Below, piece after piece: positions 19,694-41,330 of a stretch of 50,560 nucleotides of DNA (positions are counted from its first letter, which is position 1; each line of letters begins with the position of its first letter). The position numbers and the translations under genes were made by a program. Source of the stretch: an archaeon (GTDB taxonomy: Archaea; Nanobdellota; Nanobdellia; Woesearchaeales; ARS49); contig JAGVQG010000064.1 in assembly GCA_020051845.1 (NCBI GenBank), positions 1 through 50,560 of the forward strand, in the 5' to 3' direction. Under the pieces are notes generated by a model that ran no database searches, had not been told where the DNA came from, and was given only the letters and a program-made list of their open reading frames with translations.

Positions 19694-19785
19694 TGAGCAT
19701 GCTCAAGAACAGCAGGCTCAACGAAATCAAAGATTTCGTGAGCATAAAACGCCACACGTTTTATTGCTTTAGCCCGCGGTTCTTG
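19694..19785. ncRNA. Hairpin cluster, possible structured RNA
   Basis: Within the 223-base gap between PAP2 and RHH genes lie: a 12-base palindrome TGAGCATGCTCA (19694-19705); a 12-pair stem GCTCA-A-CGAAATC / GATTTCGTGAGC with one bulged A and an AAA loop (19716-19743); an adjacent perfect 8-pair stem ATAAAACG/CGTTTTAT with a CCACA loop (19744-19764); and a closing pair CAAGAAC (19704-19710) with GTTCTTG (19779-19785). Together they can fold as a closed multi-branch structure in either strand. The style recalls the hairpins after the tRNA-Gln genes. A competing reading is a minus-strand protein (63-76 codons, 19621-19812/19851), of unknown type. Confidence 0.4.
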
Positions 19786-22111: not shown

Positions 22112-22184
22112 AGCCCCGTCGTCTAGTGGTTAAGGATAGCGGCCTTTGGAGCCGTGGACGCTGGTTCGAATCCGGCCGGGGCTA
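22112..22184 (+). tRNA. trnQ-UUG: tRNA-Gln (anticodon UUG)
   Basis: Acceptor stem AGCCCCG/CGGGGCT (22112-22118 with 22177-22183), D arm GTCT...GGAT, anticodon stem GCGGC/GCCGT with loop CTTTGGA (anticodon TTG, 22146-22148), and T arm GCTGG-TTCGAAT-CCGGC (22160-22176). Discriminator A at 22184; CCA is not encoded and there is no intron. The A1-U72 pair is expected for archaeal tRNA-Gln, which is charged by the Glu-tRNA(Gln) amidotransferase route. It is followed by two imperfect copies of its own 3' end. Confidence 0.93.
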
Positions 22185-22327
22185 GGCCGAGCAGAGCGAG
22201 GACTAGCCACGGCAGGATCAAGTACGAGCAAAGCGAAGTACTTCGAATCCGGCCGGGGCTAGCGAACGCAGTGAGCTAGACACGGACGAATCCAGAAACC
22301 ACAGTTTCTCGAATCCGGTCGGGGCTA
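22185..22327 (+). repeat. tRNA-Gln(UUG) tail array: two repeats of the tRNA 3' end with hairpins
   Basis: The 20-base tRNA 3' end (22165-22184) recurs exactly at 22242-22261 and again with one change at 22309-22327. The spacers fold into hairpins: GGCTAG/CTAGCC (22180-22185 with 22203-22208), AAGTAC/GTACTT (22220-22225 with 22238-22243), CTAGC/GCTAG (22259-22263 with 22275-22279; loop GAACGCAGTGA) and AGAAAC/GTTTCT (22294-22299 with 22304-22309). Unit length is 66-77 bases, about the size of a tRNA. The same arrangement with covarying stems follows the second tRNA-Gln. Nothing in the window suggests a protein here. Confidence 0.75.
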
Positions 22328-22340
22328 TTCAGAACGTCAT

Positions 22341-22751
22341 CTATCTCAGTTCCGCGCTGAATCCGTAGTACACCAGCGCGTCCCTGACCGCGTTGGGATA
22401 GAGTTCATTCGTGGGCGAGACGTTGAACGCGTACATCACGAGATTGCCCCCTTCCATATTCTCTGCAGTGAGTTGGAGGTCTCCCTTGGCAGGTATCTCC
22501 ACAAGCGCTGTCCTGAGACGGTCGAGCGCAGGGTTTTCATTGAGAACAGTGAGCTTGAGCTCGCCGGTTGGGCTCACCTCGATGCTGGCGATCTTAATCC
22601 TTTTCAGATTATGGGGATTGTGGGGCTCTTCGTCGACAGAAACGGTTATGACGTTGTCATTGACAGGCTTGCCTATCGTGCCCGTTCCTGGCGTGCAGCC
22701 GATCACGAGTATTGATATCGTGATGATAATGCACACTGCGTTCATATTCAT
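22341..22751 (-). CDS. Small lipoprotein, 136 aa
   Basis: Signal peptide with lipobox LVIGC (Cys19) followed by a ~115-residue domain without further Cys, of mixed beta/alpha character (SIEVSPTGELKLTVLNENP). No family is recognised. It lies between the tRNA-Gln tail array and the P-type ATPase gene; an ATG at codon 3 is an alternative start. Likely anchored on the outer face of the membrane. Confidence 0.6.
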   Translation of the reverse strand: MNMNAVCIIITISILVIGCTPGTGTIGKPVNDNVITVSVDEEPHNPHNLKRIKIASIEVSPTGELKLTVLNENPALDRLRTALVEIPAKGDLQLTAENMEGGNLVMYAFNVSPTNELYPNAVRDALVYYGFSAELR

Positions 22752-22794
22752 GGCAAGCCTCTTCTGTTTGATACTCTAATTGAATATAACTCTT

Positions 22795-25323
22795 TTACTC
22801 TAACTGGTACTTCTTAATCAGCCATCCCTTGACTTTCCAGACCATGTAGAGGTAGCTGGATACTATCACGGCGAGCGCGATGAAGTACGCCGGTGGAGGC
22901 CTCACCAGACCGAGATAGATCGCCAGTGGCGAGTATGGCAGGTATATCCCTATCCCGACCGTCAATATCGTCATGATCAACAGGAACCTGCTCGGCATGC
23001 TTTCGATGAATGGTATCTTGTTGGTCCTTATGACATGCACGATCAATGTCTGCGTGCACAACGACTCGAGGAACCATCCTGTCTGGAAGAGCGGCGCTTG
23101 CGCATGGAAGATGAACCACAAGACTCCAAAAGTTATGAAGTCGAAGACCGAACTTAGCGGTCCTAGGAAGAACATGAACCGTCGTATGGCTGCCACATCC
23201 CAGGGCCGTGGTTTGCGCAGGTAGTCCTTGTCGACATCATCAGTCGGCAAAGCGAGCTGTGAGAAGTCATACAAGAAGTTGTTGAGCAGGATCTGCACTG
23301 GCGCCATGGGCAGGAATGGCAACAGACTGCCGCCGGTCATGCTGAACATGTTGCCGAAGTTCGACGACGCACCCATCCGTATGTACTTGGTGATGTTGCC
23401 GAAGACCTTGCGTCCTTCGAGGACTCCTTCCTTGAGCACGGACAGGTCTTTCTCGAGCAGGATTATGTCCGCGCTCTCTTTCGCGATATCGACGGCGTTG
23501 TTCACGGATATACCGACGTCGCTGACCTTCAGCGCAGGAGCGTCGTTGATGCCATCACCAAGGTAACCGACGGTATGGCCGTTCTGGCGCAACGCGACTA
23601 TCACCCTTTCTTTCTGCAGCGGGTTCAGACGCGCGAATATGGTCGTCTTTTCTACGATCCTGCGTAATTGCGCGTCGTTTAGCTTGGCGATCTGTTCACC
23701 GATCACCGTGCCCTTCGATACCAATCCCACTTCTTTGCAGATCTTCTGCGTCACTAGTTCATTGTCGCCGGTTATGACTTTGGTCTCTATTCCGAGATCG
23801 CTCAATGACTTGAGCGTCTTTGTGGCGGATGCCTTTGGCGGGTCGAGGAATGCCACATAGCCGCGAAGCGTGATGCCTTTCTCGTCATCTTTGCCGTAGG
23901 CGTGTTTCGGCGTCTCGAAATCGCGGTAGGCCACTGCGAGCACCATCAATCCATCCGCGCTCAGCACATCGAATTCCTTGCGGAGTTGGGCAAGTATCTT
24001 TCCATGGATCGCGTGCCTCTTGCCATGCAGCTCATAATGGGTGCATCGCTTGAATATCTCCTCTGGCGCTCCCTTGGCGACCAACCTGTGCTCGGAATCG
24101 TGCTCTATGACGACCGACATTATCCTTCGTTGGAAGTCGAACGGTATCTCGTCCACCTTGGCGTATGGCAGTCGCCCGACTTCTTTGTGCGCGAGTATGG
24201 CCTTATCCAGCAGGTTCTGCACACCAGTCTGGTGGCTGCTGTTGATGTACGCCAACCTCAGCACACGGTCGTCATCGTGGCCGTCGATATCGCAGTACTT
24301 CTCAAGTATGATCCTGTTCTCGGTCAAAGTTCCTGTCTTGTCTGTGCAAAGGACATCCATCGCGCCGAAGTTCTGGATGGAGTTCAATTTCTTCACTATC
24401 ACTTTCTTGCGCGCCATCATTATGGCTCCCTTGGAAAGGTTCACGGTGACTAGCATAGGCAACATCTCAGGCGCGAGCCCGACGGCCACTGCGAGCGCGA
24501 AAAGTATCGACTGCACGATGTCGTTTTTCGTGAACAGGTTCAGTAGGAAGATGACGCCCGCAAGCACCACTATGACGCGTATCATCATCCAGGTGAATGA
24601 TTTGATGCCCTTTTCGAAGCTGGACTCGGTGCTGGCGCTCGCGAGTTCGTGCGATATCTTGCCGAACTGGGTCTCGATGCCCGTCTTGACTATGACTCCC
24701 ATTCCCGAGCCGCTCACGACGCTCGATCCCATCAATGCCACGATGTCCGACTCCGATGCTTTCCGGTGATGCTGTGCTTGCGCGAATTTCTCCACAGGCA
24801 ATGATTCGCCTGTCAACGATGATTCATTGACGAACAGTTCCTTGGTGTGCAACAACCTCAGATCAGCGGGTATTATGTCGCCTGCGTTGAGCACGACCAC
24901 ATCGCCCGGCACCAATGACCTGATGTCGACCTCTTTCTTCTGGCCGTCGCGGTAGACCGTGGCCGTGGTCTTCACCAGCTCTCGCAGTTTCTCTGCGGCC
25001 TTGTTCGACCGGTATTCCTGGACGAATGACAGCAGGACGCTCATGAAGATCATCGTTCCTACGAATATTGCGCTTATGCGCTGGCCGAGGAACCATGACA
25101 ACAACGCTATGACGAAGAGTATGATGACTAGCGGATTGATGAATTGCTTGACAAGATGACCGAGGACCGTGATCCTGGTCATCACAGCAGGCTGATTATA
25201 GCCATAGACGCGCAACCGTCTGGCGGCCTCTTTCTCAGAAAGACCGTAGCGGTTGGTGTGTAGGACAGCGAGGAGCCTGTCGCGGGTGTAACCATATTCA
25301 GGACAGCCTTGTGATTTGCCCAT
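22795..25323 (-). CDS. P-type ATPase, MgtA-like (P3B), 842 aa
   Basis: Full-length P-type cation pump: N-terminal cytosolic segment, actuator motif TGES (171-174), phosphorylation motif CTDKTGTLT with Asp328, hinge GDGINDAPALK, and about ten membrane helices. The helix-4 motif VGLAPEMLPMLVTVNL (~281-296) matches the MgtA/MgtB group of magnesium importers rather than Ca2+, H+ or Cu+ pumps. It therefore probably imports Mg2+. AGAGGGG stands before the ATG and a TTTAAAAAGG element about 45 bases upstream. It follows the cupredoxin and membrane-protein genes on the same strand, but nothing shows a shared metal. Confidence 0.85.
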   Translation of the reverse strand: MGKSQGCPEYGYTRDRLLAVLHTNRYGLSEKEAARRLRVYGYNQPAVMTRITVLGHLVKQFINPLVIILFVIALLSWFLGQRISAIFVGTMIFMSVLLSFVQEYRSNKAAEKLRELVKTTATVYRDGQKKEVDIRSLVPGDVVVLNAGDIIPADLRLLHTKELFVNESSLTGESLPVEKFAQAQHHRKASESDIVALMGSSVVSGSGMGVIVKTGIETQFGKISHELASASTESSFEKGIKSFTWMMIRVIVVLAGVIFLLNLFTKNDIVQSILFALAVAVGLAPEMLPMLVTVNLSKGAIMMARKKVIVKKLNSIQNFGAMDVLCTDKTGTLTENRIILEKYCDIDGHDDDRVLRLAYINSSHQTGVQNLLDKAILAHKEVGRLPYAKVDEIPFDFQRRIMSVVIEHDSEHRLVAKGAPEEIFKRCTHYELHGKRHAIHGKILAQLRKEFDVLSADGLMVLAVAYRDFETPKHAYGKDDEKGITLRGYVAFLDPPKASATKTLKSLSDLGIETKVITGDNELVTQKICKEVGLVSKGTVIGEQIAKLNDAQLRRIVEKTTIFARLNPLQKERVIVALRQNGHTVGYLGDGINDAPALKVSDVGISVNNAVDIAKESADIILLEKDLSVLKEGVLEGRKVFGNITKYIRMGASSNFGNMFSMTGGSLLPFLPMAPVQILLNNFLYDFSQLALPTDDVDKDYLRKPRPWDVAAIRRFMFFLGPLSSVFDFITFGVLWFIFHAQAPLFQTGWFLESLCTQTLIVHVIRTNKIPFIESMPSRFLLIMTILTVGIGIYLPYSPLAIYLGLVRPPPAYFIALAVIVSSYLYMVWKVKGWLIKKYQLE

Positions 25324-25372
25324 ATCCCCTCTTTTTCTTTCTATGACGTGAGATTGAGTTATCCTTTTTAAA

Positions 25373-25747
25373 TCATCGTGACGATTTCAGCAGGTTCCTT
25401 GACAACCAAAGCAGTAAGAACGATGTTGGGACAAGCATGAGAAAATGGTACAAGAGGAACTCGAGAACGAATTCCGTTGGATAACCTTCAAAGAAATAAC
25501 GTGTCTGCAATAGAGCGCTCACGACCAAGGACGTGGTCAACGCCCGCCAATGTAGCTTCATCTTCTGAGTGAACGTCAATGCAAGGAACATCAACAAGGT
25601 GCCGAACATCAATTTGTTAGTGAAATAATAGGAAGGCACGGCGTATTCATCACTCCAAGAATGGACGTAGTAGTCCATAGCGGTGAATACCGATACTATG
25701 AGAATAGAGATGAAGAACAACAACAAATAAGCCTTGACCTTGCTCAT
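25373..25747 (-). CDS. Four-helix membrane protein, 124 aa
   Basis: Begins MSKVKAYLLLFFISIL and has about four membrane helices with short loops, resembling small uncharacterised membrane proteins of the DUF2061 or PqqA-size class without a clear match. ATG 25747 overlaps the cupredoxin stop as ATGA, so both are made together and the membrane protein may be a partner of the copper protein. The longer frame to 25789 runs inside the cupredoxin gene and is rejected. Confidence 0.65.
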   Translation of the reverse strand: MSKVKAYLLLFFISILIVSVFTAMDYYVHSWSDEYAVPSYYFTNKLMFGTLLMFLALTFTQKMKLHWRALTTSLVVSALLQTRYFFEGYPTEFVLEFLLYHFLMLVPTSFLLLWLSRNLLKSSR

Positions 25748-26145
25748 TCGATTATCACTTTGGCGCGCATGGACGGGTGCGGCGTGCAATGATACGCGAA
25801 ATCGCCGGCTTCGTTGAATGTGTGCGAATAGCTTCCACCCAGAGCAAGAAGCTCCGAATCCAGCTCGGTTCCAGAGTCGGACGTCACGGTGTGTCTTGCC
25901 GAATCCTCATTGGTCCATATCACTGTCGTCCCTGTCTTCACGTTCAGCGTGTCAGGGATGAACTTGAAGTCCTTGATGCGGACGTTGACGGTCTCGCCTT
26001 GTACGAGCGCTGCCGCGGATGGCGCTGTTTGCGCTTGCGTGTTGGCAGGAGCCGCCGCAGGCGCAGTCACTGGCGCATTGGGCGTTGTTGCGCATGCCGC
26101 TAGCGCGAGCAGTGCAATCACGATTAGTAGTGTTACTGTTTTCAT
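25744..26145 (-). CDS. Cupredoxin (plastocyanin-like) lipoprotein, 133 aa
   Basis: Signal peptide with lipobox LALAAC (Cys18), Ala/Pro/Gln linker, then a plastocyanin/azurin-fold domain (about 50-133). Copper ligands are visible: His85 in SARHTV, Cys120 in YHC, His123 in PHP and Met126, the classic His-Cys-His-Met type 1 site. It would carry electrons on the outer face of the membrane or bind copper. ATG 26145 was chosen because AGGT precedes it and the earlier start (26181) sits in the TATA-like region. Coupled to the membrane protein downstream. Confidence 0.87.
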   Translation of the reverse strand: MKTVTLLIVIALLALAACATTPNAPVTAPAAAPANTQAQTAPSAAALVQGETVNVRIKDFKFIPDTLNVKTGTTVIWTNEDSARHTVTSDSGTELDSELLALGGSYSHTFNEAGDFAYHCTPHPSMRAKVIIE

Positions 26146-26207
26146 TTTATACCTCACTGACAACCTATTGTCCGAGTGCATATATTATGATTATGTATCA
26201 GATTGAA

Positions 26208-27350
26208 CTAGACCAATCGCAGGTCGACTTCAAGCCCGTCAGATGTCGGGTATTCCTCGACCACTGTGGGGATGAGCTTCATCTTCTTGAACAACGCCTT
26301 GTTCTTCAGGACAAGGGCTTTGCTTGTCAACAACCGGTACTTCTGGTCGTCGATGCTGACTTTCGCGGCCAACGTCTTGGGCAGTCTGGAACGGCAGGCC
26401 TTGAGTTTACTTAGAAGCTGGTCGTGATTCGCTTCCTCGAGCCGCTTGCGATAATGGAATCCTGGCGCTGCTTCGACCAGATAGACGCAACCCCTGAGAA
26501 GCGTGCCTTCGCTCGTCACCTTGTCTGTCTGCAGCGCAATCGATTTCGCGCGTCGGATAAGCCTGTTGCCGACCTGAACCCTGTCCTTGAGACGTGCCGT
26601 GCAGTAATGTGCCGACAGTCCTTTCTTGCAGGCGTATTTCAGCATCGCGCGTCCGAGCTTCTCGCTCCCCTTGACGCCATAGCTTATCTCATCCTTCGCC
26701 TTGAACATCTCATTGAGCCTGTAGTGCGGGGCAGATGTGTCGCTCAACTCAAGTTCGTTGAGGTTGATGAACTTGACCTTGTCGAATATGTAGTCGATGA
26801 GCGCTTTTGTCTGCGAAGCATAACCCGGCACCGCAGGTATCTCGACGCCGATGTCCCACTTGAATCTCCGGGCGAGTTCTATCCTCGGCCACAGAGAGTT
26901 ATCTTCGAGATTCGGATGGAACCTGATCTCGTCCAATCCCGCGTCTGATAATCTCTTCAGGTTATCGGGTGTCACCAGCTTCAGCGGAGTATAGAGATGT
27001 ATATGGAATGGTTTTCCGAATCTCTTCTTCAGTAACCGGATATATCCTGTCGTGCGTCGCATGTTCACGAGCGGATCACCGCCTGTGATGCCAGCGCCGT
27101 GCGCGCGTGTGAGTTTTATCTCCTCAAGCATCTCTTTCGGGTGCTCAGGGTCCTTCACCTTCCACTCATTCGCATAGACTACGTCCTTGCCGAACTTGTG
27201 CTCTGCGACAGGACAGTATATGCAGCGTTGCGCGCAGATGCCAGTGATGAAAAGGACGAGCTTCTCGCCGGTGACGCAGAGCCGGCAGCCGCGTGCCAGA
27301 TTCCCCGTCTTCCAGGAATGGTATGGTGTCTTGCAGACAGTGCAGGTCAT
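26208..27350 (-). CDS. Radical SAM protein (COG2108-like), 380 aa
   Basis: The radical SAM cluster motif C39-A-Q-R-C43-I-Y-C46 follows two N-terminal Cys pairs, C3-x2-C6 and C22-x2-C25, that look like a small zinc site. GITGGDPL (the GGE-type SAM-binding motif) comes about 60 residues later, followed by a TIM-barrel and a ~110-residue C-terminal extension with basic residues. It is related to pyruvate formate-lyase activating enzymes; archaeal members of this group have no assigned substrate. Start MTCTVC at 27350 has a TTATATC element ~30 bases upstream; 27425 is a longer alternative. Divergent from the ABC transporter genes. Confidence 0.75.
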   Translation of the reverse strand: MTCTVCKTPYHSWKTGNLARGCRLCVTGEKLVLFITGICAQRCIYCPVAEHKFGKDVVYANEWKVKDPEHPKEMLEEIKLTRAHGAGITGGDPLVNMRRTTGYIRLLKKRFGKPFHIHLYTPLKLVTPDNLKRLSDAGLDEIRFHPNLEDNSLWPRIELARRFKWDIGVEIPAVPGYASQTKALIDYIFDKVKFINLNELELSDTSAPHYRLNEMFKAKDEISYGVKGSEKLGRAMLKYACKKGLSAHYCTARLKDRVQVGNRLIRRAKSIALQTDKVTSEGTLLRGCVYLVEAAPGFHYRKRLEEANHDQLLSKLKACRSRLPKTLAAKVSIDDQKYRLLTSKALVLKNKALFKKMKLIPTVVEEYPTSDGLEVDLRLV

Positions 27351-27440
27351 GTCCCATTCCCAATGAACGACAGATATAAGGTTTGCGCAGGGAGCTACAA
27401 CCACTCCGACGTGCGGACAAGGCATGATTCCGATAGCGGT

Positions 27441-27452
27441 CTATTTTTATAG
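27441..27452. promoter_or_regulatory. Near-palindromic TATA element of the ABC transporter operon
   Basis: CTATTTTTATAG is almost its own reverse complement and lies 27 bases before the ATG at 27474 (21 before the ATG at 27468). It could drive transcription in both directions, serving the ABC genes leaderless and the radical SAM gene with a leader. Confidence 0.45.
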
Positions 27453-27473
27453 TTCAATACAATAATCATGACA

Positions 27474-28154
27474 ATGGCCCTCATCTCCTTCAAGCACGTC
27501 TCGAAGAGGTTCGGTGACAAGGTCGTCCTGAAGAACATCACCTTCTCCGTGCAGAAAGGGGAGTGCATCGCCCTGCTCGGCAGGAGCGGATGCGGCAAGA
27601 GCACGCTACTCAAGATCCTGCTTGGTTTGTACAGGGCTGACAGCGGCACGATAACTTTCGAGAACGAGCCCATAGACAACAAGGCTTTGCGTCTTCTCAC
27701 CGGCTACGCTTCGCAGGAGAACTCGTTCTACGATACCCTGACTGTCAAGGAGAACATTTTCTATTACGCGGCCAGGCAACTGGCTTCGATCGATGATAGA
27801 CGCGCGCACGAACTTGCCGCGTCCGTGCGGCTCGAGCACGCCATGGGAACTCTCGCAGGCCAGCTTTCAGGCGGCATGAAGCGCCGCCTTGACTTCGCTC
27901 TTTCCCTCATCCACGACCCGATGATCCTCATACTCGACGAGCCGACCACGGGCCTTGATCCCTTGTTGGTGGAATCTTTCTGGCACCTTGTCGATGAAAT
28001 GCGAACAAAGGGCAAAACAGTGATAGTCGTGACTCACCATCTTGAGGATGTCAAAGCGCACTGCACGCGCGCGGTGATACTGAAGGACGGCAAGGTCAGC
28101 GGCATCCTCGAGGACATGAAAGACCTCGCGGAAGAGTTCAGGAGGCTCTCGTGA
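27474..28154 (+). CDS. ABC transporter ATP-binding protein, 226 aa
   Basis: Complete ABC ATPase: Walker A LLGRSGCGKST (about 34-44), Q-loop SQENSFYD, signature QLSGGMKRR, Walker B LILDEPTTGLD and switch His in THHLEDV. It is a single nucleotide-binding domain of the ABC-2 export class (as in DrrA). The start at 27474 fits the TATA spacing better than 27468. It is coupled to the permease by a GTGA overlap and so works with that protein; substrate unknown, probably export. Confidence 0.88.
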   Translation: MALISFKHVSKRFGDKVVLKNITFSVQKGECIALLGRSGCGKSTLLKILLGLYRADSGTITFENEPIDNKALRLLTGYASQENSFYDTLTVKENIFYYAARQLASIDDRRAHELAASVRLEHAMGTLAGQLSGGMKRRLDFALSLIHDPMILILDEPTTGLDPLLVESFWHLVDEMRTKGKTVIVVTHHLEDVKAHCTRAVILKDGKVSGILEDMKDLAEEFRRLS

Positions 28155-29824
28155 GGATCCTCCAGGAACTGAAGAAGAACGCGCTCTCGCTAGTCAGAAG
28201 CCCTGCCGCGCTCGTGACCCTTGTCATTGGTCCTCTGCTTCTGCTGTTACTTACCGGCATCACGCTGAGCGGCACAGAACCGAACGGGATACGTATCGGC
28301 GTGACAGGTCCTGGCGCGGGCACAGTCAACCTCAACGCGACCGTCGATTCATTCTCGACGCTCGATGGCTGTCTAGCCGCTCTCCGAGACCAACAGATTC
28401 ATTTATGCATCGAGTTCGGCAAGTTCTACACGAGCAGCGGCATCCCTCAAGGGACGGTGACTTTGCACGTCGATGAGAGTAGGCAGCGCATCAGCTCCCT
28501 GGTCCTTGAAGAGGTGAGCAAGCAGCTCGGCGTAGAGAGCAGCAAGATCCGCGTCGAGGCTGTCAAAGGCCTGCTCGACCAGTTCGGTAACATCGCATCT
28601 TTCATGTCAGAGAAGCGCACGGATCTCGTCAAGGTGCGGCAGGAGGCGCTGTCGCTCAAGTCAGACGTCACCGCCCGCCGCGTACGTCTTGAGGAGCAGC
28701 AACAAGTGTATCGCGCCGCATATTATCCTGTGCGCGACGGACTGCGTGGCGTCGATGTTTCCCTTCGATCATCGCAAGCCGATCTTGGCGGCGTGATCGC
28801 TGCAGCGTCCTCCTCACTTGACGCCATTGATTCAGCGGCTTCCCAGTTGCCGAACGCGACGCTGAACATCTCAGGATTCAACCTGTCCATGCCTGTCATC
28901 GACCTCTCGCCGCTACGACAACAGCTCACATTGATCTCAAACGACCTCAACAGCTCGCGCAACGATTCGGCTTCGACAAGCGCGTCGATCGAGGTTCTTC
29001 TCTCGGGCCTTGAGGACATCGATGTACAGATCGATGGCGACATCAACGCGTCAAGGGAGTACGAGTCGAAGATCGATACTGGCGTGACGACCATCGACGC
29101 GCTTCTCGTGCAGCTCGACGCAGACATAGAGAAGCTCAGCAGCATGGACCCGACGCTGGGCAAACGCATCGACACACCCATAGTCCAGGATGTCAAGACG
29201 CTTTTCACCGATCTTTTGCCGATACAGACGGGTTTCTCCCAGTTGTTCTGCATCGTGGTCGTCTTCATCAGCATGCTCTTCGGAGCTATCGTGACGCTCA
29301 TAGAGATAAACAGCCGCGCTGTGCTGCGCAACACCCTGACGCCGACAGGCGAGGGCTGGACGATGATTGCGCTGTGTGTCACAAGTCTCATCGTCGTCTG
29401 GATACAGGCGGGTGTGCTTCTCGTCGTGGCTGACACGTTGTTATCCGTCGATGTCAAATCCTCGCTTGCCGCGTTCGCCATTGTCGGCACGCTTCTTGCG
29501 CTGATTTTCATCAATCTGGGCATGGCCATCGCCCTGCGCCTGCGCAAGCAGCAATCCTCGATACTCGTAGCGACGTTCAGCGCCCTCATCGTGCTTCTTT
29601 TCAGCGACGTGATGACTGCCATCGAACTGATGCCCGTGAGTGTGTCAAGGTTCGTGCAGTACAACCCGCTCATAACAGCCAGCTCATTGCTCAAGCAAGT
29701 GCAGCTTTTCGGCCAGGATCTTGTCTTCACTCGGCTACAGCCATTGCTCATTTGGCTCGTAGTCTCAGTCATGGCCGTCATCCTTGCGTACAAGATATAC
29801 AAGTCAAGGATATCGCGCTGGTAG
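28151..29824 (+). CDS. ABC-2 type permease with large extracellular domain, 557 aa
   Basis: GTG start within the ATPase stop (GTGA). One membrane helix (about 17-38), a ~330-residue outside domain with predicted coiled-coil (LKSDVTARRVRLEEQQ and a later helical region), then about five membrane helices in the last ~190 residues. The layout matches ABC-2 membrane proteins such as the YhgE/Pip group and drug exporters, where the first loop is enlarged. It forms the channel for the ATPase encoded just before. The large domain probably handles a substrate or partner outside the cell. Confidence 0.78.
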   Translation: MRILQELKKNALSLVRSPAALVTLVIGPLLLLLLTGITLSGTEPNGIRIGVTGPGAGTVNLNATVDSFSTLDGCLAALRDQQIHLCIEFGKFYTSSGIPQGTVTLHVDESRQRISSLVLEEVSKQLGVESSKIRVEAVKGLLDQFGNIASFMSEKRTDLVKVRQEALSLKSDVTARRVRLEEQQQVYRAAYYPVRDGLRGVDVSLRSSQADLGGVIAAASSSLDAIDSAASQLPNATLNISGFNLSMPVIDLSPLRQQLTLISNDLNSSRNDSASTSASIEVLLSGLEDIDVQIDGDINASREYESKIDTGVTTIDALLVQLDADIEKLSSMDPTLGKRIDTPIVQDVKTLFTDLLPIQTGFSQLFCIVVVFISMLFGAIVTLIEINSRAVLRNTLTPTGEGWTMIALCVTSLIVVWIQAGVLLVVADTLLSVDVKSSLAAFAIVGTLLALIFINLGMAIALRLRKQQSSILVATFSALIVLLFSDVMTAIELMPVSVSRFVQYNPLITASSLLKQVQLFGQDLVFTRLQPLLIWLVVSVMAVILAYKIYKSRISRW

Positions 29825-29850
29825 CTGGATGATAGCCATCGAGTCGTAAG

Positions 29851-29860
29851 CTTTTTAAGA
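29851..29860 (+). promoter_or_regulatory. TATA box of tRNA-Gln(CUG)
   Basis: CTTTTTAAGA lies about 29 bases before the mature tRNA 5' end, predicting a very short leader. It resembles the element at 22066-22073 before the other tRNA-Gln. Confidence 0.45.
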
Positions 29861-29884
29861 GGCAGCGAAGAGCGAGAGAGTAAC

Positions 29885-29957
29885 AGCCCCGTAGTCTAGC
29901 GGTCAAGGATAGCTGGCTCTGGCCCAGTTGACGGTGGTTCGAATCCGCCCGGGGCTA
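29885..29957 (+). tRNA. trnQ-CUG: tRNA-Gln (anticodon CUG)
   Basis: Acceptor stem AGCCCCG/CGGGGCT (29885-29891 with 29950-29956), anticodon stem GCTGG/CCAGT with loop CTCTGGC (anticodon CTG, 29919-29921), T arm GGTGG-TTCGAAT-CCGCC (29933-29949), discriminator A; no CCA encoded, no intron. It is the second Gln isoacceptor, so both Gln codons are served by genes within 8 kb. It shares the acceptor stem and tail architecture of the UUG gene. Confidence 0.93.
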
Positions 29958-30089
29958 GACTGAGTGGAACGAATACTAGCAACGGGCGGGCCCAGAAACA
30001 GCAGTTTCTCGTGTCCGCCCGGGGCTATCGAACGAAGTGAGATAGACAAGGGCACCCACAAACAACAGTTTGTCGTGCGACCGGGTCTA
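29958..30089 (+). repeat. tRNA-Gln(CUG) tail array: two repeats of the tRNA 3' end with hairpins
   Basis: TCCGCCCGGGGCTA (29944-29957) recurs exactly at 30014-30027 and in a decayed form (10 of 12 bases) at 30078-30089. Spacers fold: GCTAG/CTAGC (29954-29958 with 29976-29980); a compound stem CGGGCGG/CCGCCCG (29983-29989 with 30015-30021) enclosing AGAAAC/GTTTCT (29994-29999 with 30004-30009); CTATC/GATAG (30025-30029 with 30041-30045; loop GAACGAAGTGA); and GCAC/GTGC enclosing ACAAAC/GTTTGT (30058-30063 with 30068-30073). Compared with the first array, stems change on both sides together (CTAGC/GCTAG to CTATC/GATAG; AGAAAC/GTTTCT to ACAAAC/GTTTGT), which is compensatory change expected of a folded RNA or DNA. 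Confidence 0.75.
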
Positions 30090-37993: not shown

Positions 37994-40261
37994 ATGGCAG
38001 TTGAGATTCGGCCGCCCGAGCCACCTCGGGGGTCGAAAAGGGGTGGGCTATTCAGCATATTCTCTTCCTCTAATGAGAAGGCTGTCCTGGCAGACATAAA
38101 GAAGACGACCGTGCTTCTTGACAGGAAGGAACGCACCCTTTCCGAACATGAGAAGGTCCTTAACGCACTTGATGCCAAGATAACCCGTCGCGAGCACGAA
38201 CTTAAGCAATACGCCAAGAAACTCGAGGCTCAAGAGCAGGATGCCAGTCAGCAACAAAGGTCGTTGATGGACAGGGAGGCGCGCGTCAAGGAATCCGAGG
38301 CCGAGAAGGCCAGGATCATCAATGAACGTGATGAGCTTGAGCGCGAGATCCAGAAGGTTTCGCTTGCCGTCCTCAAGCAGCGCGAACAGCTTGAACAGGA
38401 TGCCGAGAAAGCCAAGCAGAAGGCCCAAGAAGAACGCAAGAAGCGCCAAGATGAGCTGAAGGAGCTGGATGATGATGTCGCTGACAAGAAGAAGGCGTTG
38501 GCGGGCGTACAGCGTGATATTGAGAGACAGATCCTTAGATTGCGTGAAGAGAAAGCCGAGCTATCCAAACAGCTTGATGAGGCTGCAAAGCAGCGCACTG
38601 CCGAATATGATAAGGGTAAGCAGGCAGCGATCAAGCGCTTCGGTCCTCTGATCGAGGCGAAACGCAAGGAGTTGGCCCAGACCCAATCGGACATCGACAG
38701 CCGCCTGAAAGAGTTCAGGCAGGAGAAAGCTGAATTGTCAAAGCAGCTCGACGATGCCGCGGCTCAGCGCAATTCTGATTTTGAGGAGAAGAAGCGCGAG
38801 ATCTCGATGAAGTATGATTCTGTCATCACCGACAAGAGGAAGGAGCTCGCCGCCGTACAGAAGGGCATAGACGCAGAGCTCGCTCGCTTGAAGGAAGAGA
38901 AAGCCGCTGCTGTCGCCGCGAAGAAGAAGGAGCTGGCTTCTGTCGAGGAGGAGATAGCCGCCGAGTTGAAGACCCTCAAGGAGGCGAAGGCGCGCATGCT
39001 CGATGATATGGAGGATGCGTCCAAGGCCCGCACGGCAGACTGGGAGAAGACCAAGCAGGAGCAGGTCAAGAAGTACGAGTCTATCATCGCCGAGAAGCGC
39101 AGGGAGCTGCAGGATACGCAGGCCCAGGCCGACAAGCAGCTTGATCGTATCAAGGAATCACAATCGTCCATCTCCAAGCAGATGAAGTTGCAGGAGACAG
39201 TGCACAAGGAATTGGCGGATGCCCAGCAGGCACTTGAGGAGAATGAACTTACCTTGGAAAAGCGCGAAGAGGCGCTTGCCGTTGGTTTGAAGGAGCTGGA
39301 TGCGAAGAAGAAGGATCTTGATCGCCGCGAGAAGGCCATGGCTCAGCAGGAAGTCTCCGTGATTAAGCACGTCGACGAGATGAAGGGCTTGCGTGACCAA
39401 CTTGGCCAGGAGCGCCAGGAACTGAAGCAGATCACTGATGGCAAAAAGGCCGAGCTGTCTGATCTGCAGAAGGAATGGCAGGCAGGCTTCACGGCATTGC
39501 AATCAATGGTCAAGGATATCCGAGGCGAGCGCAACAAGGCGGAATCGATCATCACCAAGGACATGGTGGCCATAACCGACAAGGAGAAGAGGATCACTCA
39601 GTCTCTCAAAGAGGTCGACAAGGACTCGACGAAGCTCCAGAAGCAGGAGGACGCCATAACACGTCGCATCCACGAGCTGGAGAAATCCGAGGCCGAGTTC
39701 GACCGGACCAAGAAGATATTCGACAGGAAGATAGACGATTTCGAGCAGCGCGAGAAGGACTTGCGCGAGCGCGAAGACCTGGTCACCCGCGGCATGAGGG
39801 ATATGGAGGAGGCGAAAGCGAAACTGGATCATTCCTATGACCGCATCAAGCGCGCGAAGGAGTTGCGCCAGAACATCAACTTGCTCGAGAGCAAGGAGCT
39901 CGAGCTTCAGGACTCAATCGATAAGCTCTCCAAGAAGCTGATCGTGATGGGACACAAGATGCCGCTTGAGGTCAAGGCGCATCAAAAAGCCGCGGAGAAG
40001 GCCGCTGTCTCGATTCCGAAACCTGCCGGCCCGATGAGTCCGATGCCGCAGAAGGAGAAGCATGAGGTCATCCATGACCCACGCATAATGCTCAACCAGG
40101 CCCGCGTGGCGTTCGAGGCAGGTCAGTACAAGGAAGCCACTCAACTGCTGTCGAAAGCGGACAAGCTCGCGAGCCGCATGAAGAAGGGAGACGAGAAGCG
40201 CGACATATCCTATGACATCTGGGACTTGAGGACAAGCCTGCGGCTTGTCACACTCTCCTGA
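37994..40261 (+). CDS. Large coiled-coil protein, 755 aa
   Basis: After a 30-residue Pro/Ser/Gly head, nearly all of residues 30-660 is heptad-rich, highly charged coiled coil with little hydrophobic core otherwise. Several tandem ~58-residue units (for example LREEKAELSKQLDEAAKQR and FRQEKAELSKQLDDAAAQR at about 180-360) show internal duplication. The C-terminal ~75 residues (PRIMLNQARVAFEAGQYKEATQLLSKADKL) look like a TPR/helical-repeat domain. No nucleotide-binding motif is seen, so it is not an SMC or Rad50 protein. It may be a scaffold or cytoskeletal filament. TTTAAATA is 25 bases upstream (leaderless). Its end overlaps rtcA by 14 bases. Confidence 0.75.
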   Translation: MAVEIRPPEPPRGSKRGGLFSIFSSSNEKAVLADIKKTTVLLDRKERTLSEHEKVLNALDAKITRREHELKQYAKKLEAQEQDASQQQRSLMDREARVKESEAEKARIINERDELEREIQKVSLAVLKQREQLEQDAEKAKQKAQEERKKRQDELKELDDDVADKKKALAGVQRDIERQILRLREEKAELSKQLDEAAKQRTAEYDKGKQAAIKRFGPLIEAKRKELAQTQSDIDSRLKEFRQEKAELSKQLDDAAAQRNSDFEEKKREISMKYDSVITDKRKELAAVQKGIDAELARLKEEKAAAVAAKKKELASVEEEIAAELKTLKEAKARMLDDMEDASKARTADWEKTKQEQVKKYESIIAEKRRELQDTQAQADKQLDRIKESQSSISKQMKLQETVHKELADAQQALEENELTLEKREEALAVGLKELDAKKKDLDRREKAMAQQEVSVIKHVDEMKGLRDQLGQERQELKQITDGKKAELSDLQKEWQAGFTALQSMVKDIRGERNKAESIITKDMVAITDKEKRITQSLKEVDKDSTKLQKQEDAITRRIHELEKSEAEFDRTKKIFDRKIDDFEQREKDLREREDLVTRGMRDMEEAKAKLDHSYDRIKRAKELRQNINLLESKELELQDSIDKLSKKLIVMGHKMPLEVKAHQKAAEKAAVSIPKPAGPMSPMPQKEKHEVIHDPRIMLNQARVAFEAGQYKEATQLLSKADKLASRMKKGDEKRDISYDIWDLRTSLRLVTLS

Positions 40262-41330
40262 CGATTCCGTTCTCCATTAGGAATTTCTTGCCCAGCATCT
40301 GTTCCACCACCTGGATGTTGGTCTTGACATGATCCGTCATCGTCGATGATATGGATCCGCTGCCTGCCAGCGCCAACCAAGGTATGAGCTGGTCCGCCAG
40401 ATACGGATCGATGGCGCGATCGCTATTCATGTGCTGCATCAATTGGGTCGCCGCGTCTTCACCGACTCCTTCAGGAGTCGTCATCTTGCCGAGCAGAGAG
40501 CTTGAGCCGATGCGGATCGAATCATCGTTTATCTCTCCTGAGTCCGAGAATATCGCCCACAGCGTGATGCCTGCTCCAGCGTTCTGCGCAGGCGAGTATT
40601 GTGCGGCGATGTCCACCTGTGTCTGCGATCGTGAAAGCGCCAGTCGCGCGGATTCAGCGATGGATTCGGCGACTTTCTTCGGCGCGAGTGATGTGCTCGC
40701 GTGCGCGACGCCTTTGATGCATACAAGACGGCCGCGACGCATGAGATCGATGTTCGGGACTTTGGCTGCCACTATCGGGGCGAATCTGGCCCAGTCCGGT
40801 TCTGTTGAACGCGGCAACGCAGGTGTTATCCTGACGTCTATCTCTCCTCCACCCGCAGGATAGTAACCCCTGCGCATGACATTGACCGTGATCTGAGGGC
40901 AGAATTGCCGGATGGCGGGCAGGAAGACCTCCTTAAGATAGTCCATCGGAGGTGACCAGGACACGTCAGTGCCGCCTGTCAACTTCAGCACGACCGGTTT
41001 GGCCGCGAACGCTGCAGGCAGCAATGCCGCTTGCAACACCAGCGTCAGGCTTCCTGCTGTGCCGATGTCTATCTCGAACTTGCCGCCGGATATCTGCCCT
41101 GGCGAGAACCGTAAGGTGGTCGATCCTGGATTAGCTCCCTCCACCTCTGCGTTGCATAGCCTGGCCACGCATCTCACTGCCGCGAGGTGTTGCGCGGCAA
41201 GGCCTGGATTCGGCCTCTTGGCGCGGATGTTGGTTATCTCGACGCTCTTGCCGATCAACGCGCTCAGGCCAACTGCGGTGCGCAGCATCTGGCCTCCGCC
41301 TTCGCCGACAGAACCGTCGATTGTTATCAT
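40248..41330 (-). CDS. rtcA: RNA 3'-terminal phosphate cyclase, 360 aa
   Basis: Converts 3'-phosphate RNA ends to 2',3'-cyclic phosphates through an AMP intermediate. ITIDGSVGEGGGQMLRTAVGLSA at the start, RAKRPNPGLAAQHLAAV, RRGYYPAGGGE and the C-terminal nucleotidyl-acceptor motif DHVKTN with catalytic His334 are all present, so it should be active. TTCTTATATTG lies 28 bases before the ATG. It may process tRNA or mRNA ends; no RtcB is in view. Confidence 0.93.
   Translation of the reverse strand: MITIDGSVGEGGGQMLRTAVGLSALIGKSVEITNIRAKRPNPGLAAQHLAAVRCVARLCNAEVEGANPGSTTLRFSPGQISGGKFEIDIGTAGSLTLVLQAALLPAAFAAKPVVLKLTGGTDVSWSPPMDYLKEVFLPAIRQFCPQITVNVMRRGYYPAGGGEIDVRITPALPRSTEPDWARFAPIVAAKVPNIDLMRRGRLVCIKGVAHASTSLAPKKVAESIAESARLALSRSQTQVDIAAQYSPAQNAGAGITLWAIFSDSGEINDDSIRIGSSSLLGKMTTPEGVGEDAATQLMQHMNSDRAIDPYLADQLIPWLALAGSGSISSTMTDHVKTNIQVVEQMLGKKFLMENGIVRRV

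Follow-up and report, generated by a model that had tools for sequence, protein, structure and literature searches.

The window, meaning here the whole 50,560-nt stretch of archaeal DNA that was analysed, carries two glutamine tRNA genes on its forward strand, tRNA-Gln(UUG) at 22112–22184 and tRNA-Gln(CUG) at 29885–29957, both called by ARAGORN and by Rfam RF00005 (60.3 bits for the first). Each is trailed, on the same strand, by two tandem units that end in a copy of the gene's own 3′ end, here called X, and all four copies lie where the earlier note had placed them. Behind tRNA-Gln(UUG), the first unit (22185–22261, 77 nt; assigned from the sequence and a copy score of 20) opens with hairpin A at 22182–22206, which includes the last tRNA bases and has a CTAG closing pair and a GAGC-AGA-GCGA core (assigned from sequence, GA/GA enrichment and pair counts). 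This is followed by X′, an inverted copy of the tRNA 3′ end at 22204–22218, which reads TAGCCaCGGCaGGAT where an exact copy would read TAGCCCCGGCCGGAT (two C>A differences) and which none of 200 shuffles reproduced, then by an inner hairpin, AGTAC..GTACT, at 22221–22242, read directly from the sequence, and by the direct copy at 22242–22261, exact over 20 of 20 nt by sequence and copy score. The second unit (22262–22327, 66 nt; sequence, copy score and pair counts) has hairpin A at 22259–22279, an inner hairpin at 22294–22309 and a 19-nt direct copy with one change (18/19) at 22309–22327. Behind tRNA-Gln(CUG), the first unit (29958–30027, 70 nt; sequence, copy score, X′ shuffles and pair counts) contains hairpin A (29955–29979, GAGT-GGA-ACGA), X′ (29977–29989), an inner hairpin (29994–30009) and a direct copy exact over 14 of 14 nt (30014–30027), and the second (30028–30089, 62 nt; sequence and pair counts) contains hairpin A (30025–30045, GAAC-GAA-GTGA), an inner hairpin (30058–30073) and a decayed direct copy (30078–30089). 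The earlier note had correctly described tandem units, though with lengths of 64–77 nt, and a change of stem between the arrays from CTAGC/GCTAG to CTATC/GATAG. It had also reported a change from AGAAAC/GTTTCT to ACAAAC/GTTTGT; both stems exist, but the former occurs in both arrays (22294–22309 and 29994–30009), while the latter is limited to the last unit. An RNA 3′-terminal phosphate cyclase gene (PF01137) also lies in the window, at 40248–41330 on the reverse strand.

A search of the rest of the genome and of related genomes, which the earlier note had proposed, revealed own-end copies family-wide and well beyond tRNA-Gln, a spread that the note had not anticipated. We scored matches anchored at the tRNA 3′ end in the downstream DNA, counting a score of at least 11 as a strong copy. 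Such copies followed 9 of the 39 tRNA matches of the window genome that were taken with downstream DNA (one of them a low-scoring truncated match); two further tRNAs scored 9 (Val-CAC, with the copy at +105, and a Tyr match, perhaps by chance, at +432), and Gly-GCC and Glu-CTC show own-end copies that are split or partial. At the same threshold, copies were present behind 15/41 (G008), 11/34 (G013) and 3/27 (G010) tRNA genes in relatives of the same family, and behind 2/20 in G025, from another family of the order. Upstream DNA gave 0/161 at this threshold, and when each tRNA 3′ end was compared with the downstream DNA of other tRNAs, scores of at least 13 arose in 0.7%, the top ones being real neighbouring or similar tRNAs; these controls rule out a chance origin of the copies. 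The copies stop at the discriminator base (base 73); they begin in the T-loop or, in a few cases, in the anticodon loop or arm. The window genome also holds a tRNA-Pro(CGG) 3′-end copy and unit without a tRNA, about 110 nt from a contig end (C59; L135, 19540–19643), and the contig ends of C3 and C50 have sequence in common.

Read across tails, the units follow one plan: X (the tRNA end), hairpin A, X′, one or more core hairpins, and X again as the direct copy. Most are 58–180 bp long and free of genes. X′, which had escaped the earlier note, was significant in 25 of 45 tails versus 5 of 114 untailed flanks. Hairpin A often takes the form GARC-NNN-GYGA, closed by the tRNA's last bases; among unpaired flanks in tails, the most frequent is tandem GA around a 2-bp hairpin, at 2.3 per kb versus 0.79 in untailed flanks. 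The class I core stem had a covariation score of 0.451, a value reached by none of 500 shuffles, with slid versions at 0.06 or below; a mixed set of the window genome's own units and those of G025 was 74.7% paired versus at most 45% when slid. The covariation of spacer stems is thus upheld on many more copies than the two arrays offered, and the chance decay that the earlier note had named as its refuting alternative fails for that reason. A strict class I pattern, scanned over 371 genomes of the phylum, matched in nine. The matches read behind tRNAs include some in own-family genomes and those in G249 (Met), G163 (Asn) and G314 (Pro); the matches in G116 and G363 and one in G003 fall inside intron-containing tRNA genes. 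G314, of the same class, has a direct repeat of 33 bp that extends 12 nt beyond the tRNA. A scan of GTDB for the hairpin-A motif gave one match, in Vulcanisaeta, which we took as chance, the fetched 8-kb locus holding no tRNA. Rfam, run on the window and tails, returned only tRNA at the gathering score, and our literature searches found no description of such arrays.

Gain and loss of units between sister species, likewise absent from the earlier note, was seen in G002 and G017, which belong to one genus. Sites filled in G002 are empty in G017 at Ser (C31 vs C2), Gly (C14 vs C61), Glu (C19 vs C140) and Gln (C66 vs C94), and at these four recognisably the same flank continues after the copy. 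A unit behind the Leu tRNA of G002 (C9) is absent from the G017 match, with the flanks beyond not matched up, and at the Asp site both genomes have units, of which the second half is common and the first halves differ. We also found that cores are shared between different tRNAs: the 86-bp core of the G002 tRNA-Tyr unit is 99–100% identical behind tRNA-Asp of G017, and a search with it gave three hits in G002 and eight in G017; several of these stand behind further tRNAs, such as Ser and Glu, and for some the fetched stretch contained no tRNA. As is looked for in tRNA-targeted elements, there is an empty site in a close relative, for G002/G017 (the window arrays themselves being without such a comparison), and a partial 3′-end copy distal to a complete tRNA.

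Some segments between tRNA and far copy hold genes. At tRNA-Tyr of G017, a 2.8-kb segment encodes a HepT/nucleotidyltransferase pair and a SpoIIE phosphatase, gave no recombinase match, and is followed by a far copy that includes both the core and the same terminator. In the window genome, a Fic gene lies downstream of tRNA-Ala(CGC), then come several two-hairpin elements in a row, and the tRNA end recurs in part at about +1324.

Among the three explanations put forward in the earlier note, the best fit is the small hairpin element for which the tRNA end is the target site and is copied, given the filled and empty sites within one genus, the core common to different tRNAs, the occurrence of cores in either orientation, and the runs of five to eight T between tRNA and unit in some tails. 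Decayed tandem tRNA genes are unsupported in general, most units having tRNA sequence only from the T-loop onward. The tails look like a little-known form of mobile DNA for which tRNA genes are the anchor, and not like a working RNA tail, and we consider it somewhat better than an even bet that the arrays are insertions, made in DNA at the 3′ ends of tRNA genes, with duplication of the target, probably via site-specific recombination. Each event would place a short hairpin-forming segment just behind the tRNA and leave a duplicate of the tRNA 3′ end at its far side, of 13–23 nt, sometimes reaching from the anticodon loop and sometimes with a terminator behind it; the tRNA would remain whole, and the old flank would resume after the last copy. 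Repeated events would stack units, some segments carrying genes, and the window arrays would be old remnants free of genes, with decay greatest in the most distal copies.

The enzyme we have in mind is a tyrosine recombinase acting near the T-loop. Archaeal tyrosine recombinases favour the 3′ ends of tRNA genes, their start points vary and their att sites are short, and the T-loop and anticodon loop are the regions that archaeal integrases use (PMC8371274). PF00589 recombinases were present in seven of the eight genomes checked, and several of their genes start within about 60–300 nt downstream of a tRNA. Since G003 gave no PF00589 match despite units behind both Gln tRNAs, the link to a recombinase is one that we infer. 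No unit encodes a recombinase and no excised circle was seen; the small units are gene-free, and the recombinases are located elsewhere in the genomes. Two recombinases have hits to XerA_Arch that, at 77 and 76 bits, stay under that model's cut-off of 220, along with weak hits to integron integrase. Two paralogous XerA-like recombinase genes of the window genome have hairpin arrays directly upstream (L132, 11216–11480; L137, 11250–11310); contigs C56 and C62 of this genome carry XerA-like recombinases, and a further recombinase adjoins tRNA-Tyr on C52. A hairpin beside the integrase was rejected as a general rule, being limited to these two paralogues, with the recombinases of relatives lacking such neighbours. 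Further points speak against the recombination reading: a classic att duplication includes neither X′ nor the structured core, and the sense-strand folding bias described below is a prediction of the RNA model. We hypothesise that the hairpin formed by X′, core and X may serve as a folded attachment or recombination site. A more speculative extension, which we think possible but doubtful, is integron-like gene capture in small-genome archaea, with tRNA genes as the landing site and the folded T-arm hairpins (X′-core-X) as single-strand recombination sites for stacked, mostly empty cassettes.

A functional RNA tail, co-transcribed with the tRNA, would have minihelix-like units act in processing or be released as small RNAs, like the rtT RNA of E. 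coli tyrT. Structure is indeed much stronger in tails than in other tRNA flanks (mean z −3.4 vs −0.9), and the stems of tails covary. Sense-strand folding is slightly favoured (P = 0.01–0.03), the sense-folded units mostly lack T5 runs, and the wobble changes in X′ point more often to the sense strand (6 vs 3). For sense-folded units this part of the earlier note may still apply. Against it, some tails (class II, e.g. G008 C26:243338) have their better fold on the antisense strand, and in several of these 5–8 T in a row stand directly 3′ of the tRNA; kilobase cargo separates tRNA and copy in places; and units are gained and lost between sister species. The G002/G017 comparison is why we dropped the RNA tail as first choice, and we now regard it as unlikely.

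Fold-back replication errors, by template switching, could also have made the inverted and direct copies, with recombination between tails and gene conversion spreading them and no dedicated enzyme required. G003, where two units lie behind each Gln tRNA and both genes have a common unit core of about 50 nt, is consistent with this, as is the way X′ tracks the T-loop of its own tRNA even where it is unpaired within the unit. A core family and GA/GA hairpin conserved across genera, cargo genes, and a boundary at base 73 all argue against template switching, which we judge quite unlikely.

Single-strand hairpin transposition by a Y1 transposase (IS200/IS605 or RAYT-like), with X′ as a guide for X, was suggested by a class of dispersed elements that repeat the plan of the tails, as X-HP1-X′-HP2-X, with a 4-nt X and matching guide, of which the 905 kb of the window genome contain 24 instances scoring at least 5 of 8. 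Over half lie away from tRNAs, two are upstream of the paralogous XerA-like recombinase genes, and one, of the form X-A-HP1-X′-HP2-T-X with X = GCTC and hairpins styled like those of tail units, is intergenic in the window at 19716–19769, with no strand assigned, and not at a tRNA; it adjoins an IS200-like end sequence (TAGCCCGCGG). Y1 transposases were found in five of the eight genomes, and on contig C46 of the window genome (L350) one (G000:C46:5911–6255) sits just behind tRNA-Val(TAC), whose 5′ end is abutted by a two-hairpin element with X = GAGC, the tRNA's first four bases. However, there is no Y1 in G002, G017 or G025, all three of which have tails, the window genome's Y1 copy adjoins its own kind of hairpin (CCGCGGGCTAAAAGCCCGCGG), and Y1 elements are not known to duplicate targets of 13–23 bp, which makes this route improbable. 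A third repeated motif, GGTWAAGCTTTTT-hairpin-AAAAAGGTY, lies in reverse orientation directly against several tRNA 3′ ends, and it also abuts the 5′ end of tRNA-Pro(CGG) (L028, L075, L013, L068, L012, L070; L030 and L015). Lastly, Cas1/casposase-type insertion has a precedent in the Aciduliprofundum casposon, which inserts at the 3′ end of a tRNA gene and duplicates about 14–15 bp, but is largely refuted and very hard to credit here, as none of the eight genomes gave a Cas1 match while 9 of 14 controls did.

If insertion with target duplication is correct, tRNA ends in these little-studied archaea would be a dense recording ground for small insertions, and the pairs of filled and empty sites make the mechanism directly testable. 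Were the hairpins recombination sites, they would represent an integron-like solution built on tRNA genes; were they RNA, they would make up a class of long structured pre-tRNA tails. In both cases, anyone annotating tRNAs or looking for islands in the clade must expect dozens of tRNA-end copies.

Several known systems share features with these arrays. The rtT repeats of the E. coli tyrT operon stand in tandem behind a tRNA, each 178 bp long with the last 19 bp of the gene, in one operon. They resemble our units in being tandem repeats 3′ of a tRNA that hold the gene's end, but here about a quarter to a third of the tRNAs in three genomes are involved, insertion is polymorphic and the structure is different; the RtT Rfam model gave no match by cmscan at E ≤ 0.5. 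REPIN/RAYT elements, MITE-like palindromes and Rickettsia palindromic elements are likewise short, non-coding, dispersed hairpins at many sites, whereas here the repeat is taken from the adjoining tRNA and the insert lies exactly at the tRNA end. Integron attC arrays, including those of archaeal integrons (PMC9668308), are also folded inverted-repeat sites, sometimes with cassettes, and have inner ends AAC ... GTT; unlike attC, the inverted repeat here, GATTYGAAC/GTTCRAATC as read by eye, fails RYYYAAC/GTTRRRY, the anchor is a tRNA gene, and the recombinase hits to integron integrase are weak. Integrative elements and genomic islands at tRNA genes, among them archaeal tyrosine-recombinase elements (PMC8371274) and Prochlorococcus tycheposons, share the tRNA 3′-end target, the complete tRNA on one side with a partial copy on the other, starts at the T-loop or anticodon loop, and cargo such as toxin-antitoxin genes. 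What sets the present units apart from these is that they are mostly 58–180 bp, gene-free and tandem, built as X-hairpin-X′-hairpin-X around a conserved core, and that they occupy many tRNAs of one genome.
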